Source: Ferruginibacter sp.
GTDB taxonomy: Bacteria > Bacteroidota > Bacteroidia > Chitinophagales > Chitinophagaceae
Direction of reading: 5' to 3'
Length of the DNA: 40,492 nt
Assembly (NCBI GenBank): GCA_017988335.1
Contig: JAGNRZ010000007.1
Span: 1 to 40,492, forward strand
Shown: positions 7,106 to 10,564 of the stretch, in pieces
How positions within the stretch are numbered: position 1 is the first letter of the stretch
Layout: each line of letters begins with the position of its first letter
Program-made: the position numbers and the translations under genes
Notes under the pieces: generated by a model
Seen by the model: the letters and a program-made list of their open reading frames with translations, nothing else
Databases searched by the model: none
What the model was told of the DNA's origin: nothing

Positions 7106-10100
7106 TTACAGCACCACATTCACCATTTTATTTTTTACAAAAATTATTTTTTTAGGCGGCTTGCCTTCTAACCATTTTTGTACTATTTCGTTTTGTAGTA
7201 CAATTTCTTCTACTTGCGGTTGTGTTAAATCTAACGCTAAAGAAATATTGGTACGCAATTTACCATTGATAGAAATAGGATAATCCTTACTACTCTCAAC
7301 CAACAATGCAGCATTGTACGTTGGATATTCAGCATCTAAAATAGAAGTAGTGTAACCCAACTGACTCCACAATTCCTCAGCAATATGTGGAGCATAAGGC
7401 ACTAATAAAATCAATAATTTTTCTAGCACTTCCTTTTTATGGCATTTAGCATCTGCCAGTTCGTTTACACAAATCATAAACGTACTTACAGCTGTGTTAA
7501 AGCTAAAGCGTTCTGTATCTTCTTCTATTTTTTTTATGGTACGATGTAGAATTTTTAATTCAGCATCACTTGCTTTTTCATCTGTCCATACTTTCTTTCC
7601 CTCATTCCCTGCCTTCGCTGAAGCTTCGGCAGGTGAATTAAACAACCTCCACAATTTTCTTAAAAAACGATGTACCCCTTCAATACCCTTTGTATCCCAA
7701 GGTTTGCTGGCTTCTACTGGGCCAAGGAACATTTCGTACATACGGAAAGTATCAGCACCGTATTTATCGCAAAGGTCGTTGGGGTTAACAGTGTTGTATT
7801 TAGATTTTGACATCTTTTCTGTTTCCACACCGCAGATATATTTGCCGTCTTCTAAAATAAATTCTGCATTTGCATATTCATCTCTCCATTTTTTAAAAGC
7901 ATCAATATCTAATTCAACTCCATCTACTATATTAACATCTACATGTAATTCAGATGTAGAAAGATTTGCCCAATTTGTAGGCTCCGCTCTATCTACACCA
8001 AAGAAATCATGCATAGCATTTTGAAATACATCAAACTCATTTTGATTTAGCGAATCTCTTTTATCATATAACCCTTTGCTTATAAAAATGTTTCTTCCGT
8101 TCACCCTATCTTTAATAGTATGACCTGTTTCATATTTATTAATCCTACACACAAACCTACTACTCCCCTGTATCATCCCCTGGTTCAACAACTTCTTAAA
8201 CGGTTCATCAAAACTAATATAACCAAGGTCGTATAACACTTTTGTCCACATACGGCTGTATAGCAAATGTCCTACCGCATGTTCTGTACCACCAACATAT
8301 AAATCTACTTGGTTCCAATAATCGCTTACGTTTTTATCACAAAAAGTAGTGGCGTTGTTTGGATCCATATAGCGTAAAAAATACCAACTGCTACCTGCAT
8401 AGCCGGGCATGGTGGAGGTTTCTCTTTTCACCTCACCCCTACCTCTCTCCAATGTAGAGGGGAAAGAAACCTCACCCCTAACCCCTCTCCCAAGGAGAGG
8501 GGAGTTAGTCTCTACACTTTCGCTAATTTCTTTTTTATTTAAGGTTTCTTCTATTTCTTTTAAAACAGTTTGTAGTGTATTGTTTACTTCATAGTTAGTA
8601 AAACGTAATAGGGTAAATCCATTTTCATTTAACCATATTTCTCTAGCAGCATCATATTTTTTTTGTTCAACTTCATCATGATAACCACCATCAATTTCTA
8701 CAATTAACTTTTTTTCCAAGCAAACAAAATCAGGTATGTATCCTGCTATAGGATGTTGCCTTCTAAATTTATACCCAGCAACATTTCTATTTCGCAATTC
8801 TTGCCACATAATATCTTCCTCTTCGGTAAGATTTTTTCTGTTTTCTTTTGCAAATGCAAGTGTTTTTATCCATTCATCTTTGGTACTGTTAATATAGCCG
8901 TATGAATCTTGCGTTTGCATTCCCCTCTCCTTTGGAGAGGGGTTAGGGGTGAGGTCAACCCATTCAACAATATTCGCCAAAGGTCCTTGTCCTTCTGGCC
9001 CTGGTCCATATTTTTCTACATAAGGCAATTGCAAAGGCAATTCATTTTTATCTAATGCCACAACCGTTCCCTCTTTCCATTGTATAGGAAAAGGCTCACC
9101 CCAATAACGTTGGCGGCTAAAGCCAGCATCTCTCATTCTGTAATTTACCTTGCGTTTACCAATGCCCTTTTCTACCAATTTATCAATCACAATTTTCATC
9201 GCCTCCTTCATGAGCACACCATTTAAAAAATCGCTATTTTCTAAAGTAGCTTCTTTGGTAGGGTTAGCTTCTTCACCCGTAAAATGTGTACCAATAATAT
9301 TGGTGATGGGTATATTAAAATGTTTGGCAAAAGCAAAATCTCTCTCATCGCCGCAAGGCACCGCCATTATTGCGCCAGTGCCATAGCCAGCCAATACATA
9401 CTCACTTATCCAAATAGGTATTTGCCTACCGTTAAAAGGGTTAATAGCATAAGCCCCAGTAAAACAACCCGTAATTTTTTTCTCCGCCATTCTATCTACA
9501 TCGCTACGGCTTTTTACATAAGCGATGTATTCCTCCACTGCAGTTTTTTGTTCTGCACTGGCAATAGAAGTTACAATGTCTAACTCTGGTGCCACCACCA
9601 TAAAGTCAACACCAAAAATGGTATCTGGTCGGGTAGTATATACAGTTATGGACGACTGACCACTGACTTCCGACGATGAACTTTGCACTTCAGTTGTCGG
9701 TTGTCCATTGTCTATTGTCTTTATAAAAAATTGTATTTCAGCTCCTTCACTTTTACCAATCCAATTGCGTTGCATATCTTTCATGCTATCGCTAAAATCC
9801 ACTGTTTCTAGGCCTTCTAGCAATCTATCTGCATAAGCTGTAATACGCAAATACCATTGCCTCATTTTCTTTTTTACTACAGGGTGGCCGCCACGTTCAC
9901 TTACACCGTTTACTACTTCGTCATTAGCTAAAACTGTACCCAATGCTTCACACCAGTTTACTTCGCCAAATTTGCTAAAAGCAAGGCGGCGTTGCATCAA
10001 CCATTCTTCTTTTTCGGCAGTAGTAAAATTATTCCATTGCTCAGCCGTAAACTTGCTACAGCCTTTTGTTTCATATTTTTTTACAAGCTCACTTATTGGC

Positions 10101-10564
10101 AATGCTTTTTTGCAAGTGTTACAGAAATAGCTATTAAATAATTCTAAAAAAATCCATTGCGTCCATTTGTAATAATTAGGGTCGCTGGTTTGTACTTCTC
10201 TTTCCCAATCGTAACAAAACCCAATTTTATCTAACTGGCTTTTAAAGGTTGCAATATTTTTTTCGGTAGTTACTTTAGGATGTTGCCCAGTTTCAATAGC
10301 ATACTGTTCTGCAGGCAAACCAAAACTATCAAAACCCATAGGATGCAATACGTTAAACCCTTTCAAGCGTTTGTACCTACTATAAATATCGCTAGCTATA
10401 TAACCCAAAGGATGCCCAACATGTAAGCCTGCACCACTTGGGTACGGAAACATATCCAGCACATAATACTTTGGCTTATCAAATTTGTTTTCAACTTTAT
10501 AAACATTATCGGCTTTCCACTTTTCTTGCCACTTTTTTTCAATATCGTTAAACTTATATTCCAT
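7106..10564 (-). CDS. leuS: Leucyl-tRNA synthetase carrying an internal DUF559 nuclease domain
   Basis: A class I synthetase that charges tRNA-Leu. At 1152 residues it is roughly 200 longer than the 920-950 I expect for Bacteroidota. Visible parts are the HIGH-type motif HVGH (48-51), the CP1 editing domain from about 245 to 430 (TTRPDT at 310-315, GTGAIMAVPCGDERD near 395-409), and SSWYFLRYMDP (725-734). The KMSKS loop is at 917-921, followed by the anticodon-binding helices. The reading frame is unbroken. Three stretches look foreign: residues about 285-306, about 538-713 (a complete DUF559 endonuclease domain) and about 977-989. Each coincides with repeat-like DNA. All catalytic signatures are intact and no second leuS is in the window, so the enzyme is presumably active. 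Repeat copy C lies just upstream of the start. Confidence 0.95.
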   Translation of the reverse strand: MEYKFNDIEKKWQEKWKADNVYKVENKFDKPKYYVLDMFPYPSGAGLHVGHPLGYIASDIYSRYKRLKGFNVLHPMGFDSFGLPAEQYAIETGQHPKVTTEKNIATFKSQLDKIGFCYDWEREVQTSDPNYYKWTQWIFLELFNSYFCNTCKKALPISELVKKYETKGCSKFTAEQWNNFTTAEKEEWLMQRRLAFSKFGEVNWCEALGTVLANDEVVNGVSERGGHPVVKKKMRQWYLRITAYADRLLEGLETVDFSDSMKDMQRNWIGKSEGAEIQFFIKTIDNGQPTTEVQSSSSEVSGQSSITVYTTRPDTIFGVDFMVVAPELDIVTSIASAEQKTAVEEYIAYVKSRSDVDRMAEKKITGCFTGAYAINPFNGRQIPIWISEYVLAGYGTGAIMAVPCGDERDFAFAKHFNIPITNIIGTHFTGEEANPTKEATLENSDFLNGVLMKEAMKIVIDKLVEKGIGKRKVNYRMRDAGFSRQRYWGEPFPIQWKEGTVVALDKNELPLQLPYVEKYGPGPEGQGPLANIVEWVDLTPNPSPKERGMQTQDSYGYINSTKDEWIKTLAFAKENRKNLTEEEDIMWQELRNRNVAGYKFRRQHPIAGYIPDFVCLEKKLIVEIDGGYHDEVEQKKYDAAREIWLNENGFTLLRFTNYEVNNTLQTVLKEIEETLNKKEISESVETNSPLLGRGVRGEVSFPSTLERGRGEVKRETSTMPGYAGSSWYFLRYMDPNNATTFCDKNVSDYWNQVDLYVGGTEHAVGHLLYSRMWTKVLYDLGYISFDEPFKKLLNQGMIQGSSRFVCRINKYETGHTIKDRVNGRNIFISKGLYDKRDSLNQNEFDVFQNAMHDFFGVDRAEPTNWANLSTSELHVDVNIVDGVELDIDAFKKWRDEYANAEFILEDGKYICGVETEKMSKSKYNTVNPNDLCDKYGADTFRMYEMFLGPVEASKPWDTKGIEGVHRFLRKLWRLFNSPAEASAKAGNEGKKVWTDEKASDAELKILHRTIKKIEEDTERFSFNTAVSTFMICVNELADAKCHKKEVLEKLLILLVPYAPHIAEELWSQLGYTTSILDAEYPTYNAALLVESSKDYPISINGKLRTNISLALDLTQPQVEEIVLQNEIVQKWLEGKPPKKIIFVKNKMVNVVL
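7608..7633. repeat. Palindromic unit inserted in frame in leuS
   Basis: CCTGCC and GGCAGG flank a GAAGCTTC centre. It encodes PAEASAKAG (near residues 978-986) between LWRLFN and KKVWTDE, where I expect a shorter loop. Its layout resembles the intergenic palindrome at 10948-10972. Confidence 0.65.
8469..8503 (+). repeat. Inverted repeat bounding the DUF559 unit, copy 1
   Basis: The repeat has a C-rich lead (CCTCACCCCTAACC) followed by a small hairpin, CCCTCTCC against GGAGAGGG. It differs from the reverse complement of 8921-8955 at one base. A weaker direct copy sits next to it at 8430-8463. Confidence 0.9.
8921..8955 (-). repeat. Inverted repeat bounding the DUF559 unit, copy 2
   Basis: This is the mirror copy of 8469-8503, with the CCCCTCTCC / GGAGAGGGG hairpin and a TTAGGGGTGAGG arm. 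The distal end marks the point where LeuRS sequence (NIVEWVD) stops and repeat-encoded peptide starts. Confidence 0.9.
9647..9712 (-). repeat. Repeat-like insertion in the leuS editing-domain region
   Basis: Plus-strand DNA here is built of short units such as GACTGACCACTGAC and GTTGTCGGTTGTCC. It encodes a low-complexity Gly/Gln/Ser/Thr stretch, NGQPTTEVQSSSSEVSGQ, just before TVYTTRPDT. The LeuRS family normally has only a short turn there, so about 20 residues look added. Confidence 0.6.

Follow-up and report, generated by a model that had tools for sequence, protein, structure and literature searches.

We analysed a 40,492-nucleotide stretch of DNA from Ferruginibacter sp. (contig JAGNRZ010000007.1 of assembly GCA_017988335.1), called the window below. 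Its leucyl-tRNA synthetase (LeuRS) gene, leuS, contains a nuclease-encoding insert in the host reading frame. The features of the locus are as follows.

7106..10564, minus strand: leuS, the leucyl-tRNA synthetase host gene, 1152 aa, a single open frame through the insert.
8430..8956, minus strand: inserted unit at site B, aa 537–712, about 175 codons, missing from most related LeuRS examined.
8921..8955, minus strand: 5′ terminal hairpin repeat (left repeat), encoding the peptide DLTPNPSPKERG in the host frame.
8540..8860, minus strand: DUF559 nuclease domain (PF04480), aa 569–675, E 8.1e-35 (Pfam), between LeuRS domains.
8469..8503, minus strand: 3′ terminal hairpin repeat, inverted copy (right repeat), encoding the peptide SPLLGRGVRGEV in the host frame.
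8430..8462, minus strand: decayed second copy of the 3′ end, encoding the peptide FPSTLERGRGEV and adjoining the right-hand repeat.

The initial annotation had described about 175 in-frame leuS codons that encode a DUF559 domain with D612, E623, and D625 and are translated through, bounded by 35-base inverted repeats that match at 34 positions and can each form a hairpin, with a third, decayed copy adjoining one end. Each of these features was confirmed. The three acidic residues are all intact, the repeats at 8469–8503 and 8921–8955 are complementary at 34/35 positions (97%), a perfect 9-bp hairpin lies within each 35-nt repeat, and the decayed copy is on the right-hand side. The hairpin CCCCTCTCC-NNN-GGAGAGGGG occurs three times in the window (at 8442 with 2 mismatches, at 8482, and at 8922) and was not found in 100 shuffles. 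The 3′ arm of the left hairpin, AAAGGAGAGGGGAATG (8918–8935), resembles a ribosome-binding site and precedes an in-frame ATG (M549), from which a separate nuclease product might start, as read from the sequence. By eye, a Met similar to M549 is present in L033 and absent from several other units.

Across 102 aligned DUF559 domains, E25, W29, D54, E65, G68, H71, and D80 were invariant and D67 was present in at least 90%. D54, E65, and D67 of the alignment correspond to D612, E623, and D625 of the window LeuRS; in its numbering, E583, W587, D612, E623, H629, and D638 are invariant among the 102 relatives and D625 is found in at least 90% of them. The insert thus belongs to the DUF559/EDxHD nucleases by a PF04480 match above the cut-off and by its conserved acidic residues. 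The closest embedded pairs gave dN/dS values of 0.04–0.29, some with dS >1, and one stand-alone pair with very few changes gave 0.93. Judging from these substitution ratios, purifying selection acts on the nuclease. The domain model (pLDDT 87.7) had its best PDB matches with 3HRL, an endonuclease-like protein, and then with the homing endonuclease I-Bth0305I (3R3P; structure match E 6e-4, prob 1.00), while PvuRts1I and Vsr matched more weakly; profile matches gave E 4.5e-35 for 3HRL and E 1.3e-6 for 3R3P. As modelled, the nuclease folds like the catalytic domain of I-Bth0305I and is in this respect related to a known homing endonuclease.

Structure prediction of the 1152-residue protein, proposed as a check in the initial annotation, placed a folded nuclease between low-confidence repeat-encoded stretches. 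The full-length AlphaFold model had a mean pLDDT of 77.6, a pTM of 0.65, and nine stretches below pLDDT 50; two of these, aa 540–565 and 679–710, hold the repeat-encoded peptides and flank the nuclease. As a prediction, the model supports a role of these peptides as linkers. No intein splicing family was found among the Pfam matches listed for 21 proteins or the NCBIfam matches listed for 10. The frames were collected because they are open, so their openness is no test of removal as an intron at the RNA level.

The genome of the window (3.08 Mb) contains two DUF559 matches, both inside larger frames. The second is an in-frame fusion at the start of a nucleotidyltransferase, whose best NCBIfam match, MurU, is under the cut-off (118 of 250 bits), and the leuS-type hairpin gave 0 matches at this locus. 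The leuS repeat gave 47 matching rows in the genome (E up to 10), which we counted as 27 places, 2 in leuS and 25 outside. At the 22 non-leuS loci inspected, most copies were in short frames; two solo hairpins without nuclease lie in frame in long purL-like (L007) and nitrilase-like (L025) frames (near 1501–1536), these host names being judged by eye. A LeuRS search gave 2 matches at E≤1e-60, which were taken as the two halves of the one leuS, and no second LeuRS was found among the matches listed.

We compared LeuRS frames at two positions, site A (before TTRPDTIFG) and site B (the site of the window insert). In related LeuRS, the loop from EW to RETSTMPGYAGSSWYFLRY consists of a few variable residues in most genomes and holds a unit in G000, G004, and G008. 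Among 115 LeuRS frames, 80 had no nuclease at either site, and 74 of these had ordinary short loops; a unit was present at site A in 24 and at site B in 13, two of them with both sites occupied, counts that give no prevalence because many frames were picked for being occupied and that include L249 twice and perhaps L215 as well. A longer loop without nuclease was found at one or both sites in 16 of the 115, these solo states being defined by length cut-offs and the repeat peptides among them judged by eye. A bare repeat peptide occurs at site A in L041 (TPNPSPKGEG) and L328 (IPNPSPGGKG) and at site B in L131, L136, L214, and L348. Site B of L158 and L328 resembles, by eye, the right end of a deleted unit. 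The window itself has an unusually long loop at site A (QPTTEVQSSSSEVSGQSS, 9647–9718), which may be a relic of an earlier unit, and L035 and L319 have long loops of a different kind. The prospect that all related LeuRS carry the domain at the same place is contradicted, since most of those examined have no domain at site B. The alignment of related leuS genes suggested in the initial annotation accordingly provided empty sites; it did not provide the precise junction also sought, and no exact nucleotide junction or target was obtained from congener alignments because the loop is too variable.

We searched for the unit in other genes and found it in many unrelated housekeeping genes. DUF559 is present in 95/195 genomes of the window's family, and the open frames listed fall into a short class, mostly of 120–175 aa, and a long class of up to 1447 aa. 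The family set comprised 87 DUF559 domains in 84 frames from 84 loci, some of these frames not lying in a recognised gene (L119, L159); it was built from the listed rows with frames of at least 200 aa, all but G169:C6, plus the two of the window genome (70 regions), with ten further units added and at least G005, G017, G031, and G035 left out. By motif, 75 of the 87 domains were assigned to a host site and 12 were classed as other. The assigned sites, in units, were LeuRS A (20) and B (10), two MetH sites (7 and 2), IcmF (7), ArgB (6), AroC (5), CinA (4), MurU (4), two MetRS sites (3 and 2), two acetyl-CoA synthetase sites (2 and 1), and adenine deaminase (2). In HMM scans of 20 examples, DUF559 was accompanied by host domains of acetate-CoA ligase, CinA, MetH, adenine deaminase, chorismate synthase, IcmF, amino acid kinase, Lhr, GHMP kinase, and HisA in a first group, and of RecG, IleRS, DegT, PaaZ, Ham1, YgbB, PriA, Lhr, GcpE, and MetRS in a second. 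In ArgB, MurU, HisA, and some others, DUF559 is an N-terminal addition and not an internal insert. Across Bacteroidota, units were found in leuS (two sites), metG, ileS, metH, aroC, argB, icmF, acs, cinA, recG, lhr, and others.

A further set of loci from named genomes consisted of the best 80 of at least 581, chosen by similarity, and this ranking favours embedded forms. In this set, 57/80 domains were in frames of at least 250 aa, a cut that counts L222, apparently no fusion. Four domains were excluded because their flanks were too short, the single locus L230 accounts for three of the 80 rows, and L215, L249, and L254 were counted in both the family and the named-genome sets. By name, 78/80 loci belong to Bacteroidota; the exceptions are an alphaproteobacterial MAG (L267) and an Anaerolineales MAG (L274). 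In L267 (3823–6717), a DUF559 unit with near-identical inverted ends of about 100 nt lies in frame in priA. Two DUF559 domains occupy different sites of one host protein in L093, L097, L164, and L255, the hosts being LeuRS in two genomes, acetyl-CoA synthetase, and a MetH-like frame. In L230, from Pedobacter, three near-identical stand-alone DUF559 copies with inverted hairpins lie in one locus.

Inverted ends were scored against dinucleotide shuffles. Among the embedded units, 63/87 had ends with p<0.05 and 55/87 with p<0.01, and in the remaining 24/87 the inverted repeat was not significant; the metH units scored 8–11.5 against a shuffle 95% point of 10.5. The stand-alone copies gave p<0.05 in 28/41 and p<0.01 in 25/41, and the top inverted pair of this set, in L202, has ends of about 100 nt with a score of 90. 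In the named-genome set, p<0.05 was reached in 71/80 (52/57 in frames of at least 250 aa and 19/23 in shorter frames). Under a stricter control, in which left and right ends were paired across genomes, 34/87 passed the 95% point and 12/87 the 99% point, which we attribute to similar end types that many units have in common. The suggestion that DUF559 genes elsewhere might lack such repeats did not hold, as they are often flanked by inverted hairpin repeats.

For 56 clear-ended units compared between different genomes and host sites, end similarity dropped with nuclease divergence (Spearman −0.25, 1333 pairs), a value as low being obtained in 0/1000 permutations. At the same host site, the relatedness of ends and nucleases gave a Spearman of −0.70 (194 pairs). 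End similarity was not clearly higher within a genome, a comparison of 13 same-genome pairs only. The ends follow the nuclease, and we take them as parts of the element; genome-specific repeats as the source of the ends are unsupported, on the same 13 pairs. In the window's genus, 23 genomes have both the repeat and DUF559, 5 the repeat only, 7 DUF559 only, and 24 neither (Fisher p 4.6e-6; window-type repeat at E up to 0.001 and DUF559 at E below 1e-20), in a table whose related genomes are not independent and in which the repeat matches include the ends of the units themselves. DUF559 is present in all 12 genomes of the genus with five or more repeat matches. No target-site duplication was detected: with end positions that are approximate, a repeat of at least 2 nt was present in 13/126 units with ends scoring at least 14, against about 12 expected from shuffled pairs. 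No junction base motif or target motif was found among the units tested.

We compared the descent of the units with that of their hosts. Most mid-gene units fell into a single group of 67 rows with weak support (SH-aLRT 87), within which host site was the main divider, in a tree with 25 host-site changes; L117 (site B) and several single cases were outside this main embedded group, and the unit trees, built on 102 columns, have low resolution. At leuS site A (n = 22), insert and host distances gave r = 0.10 (p 0.18, bootstrap −0.10 to 0.30). The two halves of these hosts gave r = 0.78, and host windows of 102 columns gave r of at least 0.42, so the shortness of the insert does not explain the discordance at site A. 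In regards to site B (n = 12), the insert follows the host (r = 0.55). A larger set of 877 same-site pairs gave r = 0.06 for site A and 0.56 for site B; at other sites r was 0.03–0.77 (at least 6 pairs), and MetRS gave 1.00 with 3 pairs. L215, L249, and L254 were left out of the correlations, as was L263 on an unchecked assumption. These comparisons reject vertical fusion as the sole cause at site A, given the empty sites and the insert–host discordance, and do not reject it at site B.

The congeners L136/L142 and L128/L131 have similar hosts (pN 0.07 and 0.09) and unlike inserts at site A (pN 0.33 and 0.32). In L252/L266, two Cyclobacteriaceae MAGs, the insert had a dS of 0.11 against 1.35 upstream and 1.37 downstream in leuS, with graded borders (dS 0.43 in the 25 codons before the insert and 0.39 in the 40 codons after it). 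The leuS of this pair is uneven (pS 0.36–0.48 in codons 1–120), and the insert is still lowest. This dS trough with graded flanks is a homing-like signature of short co-conversion, although ordinary recombination may have affected the insert by chance. No other clear trough occurs among the 877 same-site pairs; the values of the other flagged pairs are high and near saturation. Insert and host are about equally similar in L102/L118, L275/L284, L093/L143, and L149/L158, and these pairs, like site B, look vertically inherited from their sequences. L105/L107 has a small insert excess (99.3% vs 95–96%). Spread between lineages into the same allelic site is thus indicated at leuS site A, and a co-conversion signature was seen in one pair.

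The nuclease unit is genuine, recurs in a patchy distribution, and shares the reading frame of its host proteins. The reading that we favour, and consider probable, is a non-splicing mobile element of the homing type that survives as a translated, linker-flanked domain. Homing is preferred because of the discordance at one site and, most heavily, because of one genome pair. The proposal of the initial annotation, that the host tolerates an in-frame nuclease unit as a domain and that the hairpins are the ends of this unit, is supported by empty sites, by relics at the same site, by the association of the ends with the nuclease, and by one pair with a homing-like transfer.

The units could also be hairpin-ended transposons or MITE-like elements, with DUF559 as a transposase-like end nuclease or a passenger and with same-site recurrence reflecting insertion-tolerant hot spots. 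Across different genes the ends go with the nuclease, the hairpins are scattered and, within the genus, co-occur with DUF559, and the inverted ends of stand-alone units are long, with one pair of about 100 nt reaching a score of 90. However, the target-site duplication of a DDE-type transposon was not found in 126 units, the L252/L266 trough with graded flanks at the same site points to homologous transfer, and the named enzyme with the most similar fold is a homing nuclease; we regard a transposon as unlikely. A still less probable explanation is that DUF559 has another job, in repair or defence, and that the units spread by ordinary interspecies homologous recombination and are kept as harmless. 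It fits poorly with one nuclease family that occurs with cognate ends in many unrelated genes, with congeners that hold unlike units at the same site, and with the L252/L266 tract, which is centred on the unit while the gene elsewhere is at dS 1.35; it gains from site B and several close pairs, which look vertical, and from the Caulobacter DUF559 protein VsrA, which has been proposed to act in mismatch repair (PMC12907096).

A normal domain fusion, in which the LeuRS of this lineage acquired a nuclease domain that is of use to it, would agree with purifying selection on the domain and with the largely vertical site B. It is already contradicted, and we give it very little credence, by the 80/115 LeuRS frames without nuclease at both sites (74 with ordinary short loops), by the DUF559 domain in metabolic enzymes, helicases, and other synthetases, and by the hairpin ends and relics. 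The chance that the units are assembly or binning artefacts is negligible. Many of the genomes are MAGs, but units are also present in strain records, namely in leuS of Ilyomonas limi 17mud1-8 and Dysgonomonas sp. PF1-14 and in metH of Flavobacterium cucumis DSM 18830, and six genomes (four not labelled as MAGs and two MAGs) each have one LeuRS frame, which bears the insert.

The probable homing-type element shares with EDxHD (Vsr-like) homing endonucleases of the I-Bth0305I type the nuclease fold, a fixed site in a conserved gene, and, in one pair, co-conversion-like flanks. I-Bth0305I is a mobile intron protein according to its PDB entry, whereas no intron or intein was recognised here; moreover, the matches included no separate DNA-binding domain, and here hairpin repeats enclose a nuclease domain that is in frame with the host protein. 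Inteins with homing endonucleases are likewise in-frame nuclease units in conserved proteins, but the present units have no splicing family among the Pfam and NCBIfam matches listed, have hairpin ends, and leave hairpins as relics. REP sequences with RAYT transposases are dispersed hairpins together with a gene flanked by inverted copies, and RAYT is an HUH enzyme. The dispersed hairpins and the gene between inverted copies are similar here, whereas the nuclease is of the PD-(D/E)XK type and not HUH, and the units insert in frame inside genes. Rickettsia palindromic elements (RPEs) are also palindromic and in frame inside protein-coding genes (PMC10969869). They are about 150 bp long, and the account of them in that source names no nuclease, whereas the full unit here encodes a nuclease that is under selection and so differs from a short palindromic unit without its own enzyme; the solo in-frame hairpins here resemble RPEs. 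Caulobacter VsrA belongs to the same domain family but has its own gene and is proposed for repair, with no mobility reported in the source's account of it (PMC12907096), where this DUF559 protein is described as Vsr-like. A DUF559 gene has been assigned to the EDxHD family of homing nucleases in a passage that deals with inteins (PMC9403480), and homing is described as independent of the intron or intein itself and as co-converting the flanks (PMC3943268). Among titles and the beginnings of abstracts in open-licence PMC, we found no description of an in-frame, non-splicing, hairpin-ended nuclease element; it may be in print elsewhere.

We propose the following cycle for the element. The unit, a single nuclease domain of the EDxHD/Vsr-like (DUF559) kind bounded by its cognate inverted hairpin repeats, which are open in the host frame, would occupy a loop that varies in an otherwise conserved protein. 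The repeats would be translated as flexible Pro/Gly-rich linkers, the nuclease would fold as an extra domain, and the host enzyme would stay functional. The nuclease may then cut an empty allele in another cell, and repair from the occupied allele would copy the unit with short flanks, which is homing. Rarely, a unit with its ends might land in frame in a new gene. Later, the unit would decay to a solo hairpin or be lost, and the site would be open to reoccupation. We infer cleavage, mobility, the direction of transfer, tolerance by the host protein, and a single-chain product, as well as the mode of entry into different genes, which would need a step beyond homing alone. More tentatively, and with less than even expectation, the units might form a separate class of element, in which the nuclease has its own cognate hairpin ends as substrate and thereby spreads to alleles by homing, enters new genes in frame by jumping, and moves solo hairpins in trans. 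If so, host proteins would gain ready-made linker–domain–linker inserts, and the spread of palindromic repeats inside genes would be explained.

Homing nucleases in essential genes are tolerated because the intron or intein removes them. The pattern described here suggests a way for such gene parasites to live in genes without splicing out. Non-removal with the terminal repeats as linkers would be a third solution, beside introns and inteins, and a widespread one among the Bacteroidota, where LeuRS, MetRS, IleRS, and methionine synthase are among the enzymes concerned. Two puzzles are thereby connected, namely the palindromic repeats found within coding sequences and the function of DUF559 proteins; both are testable since some of the occupied genomes are recorded as those of strains. 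Furthermore, the units may show, by natural example, where domains can be inserted safely into essential enzymes.
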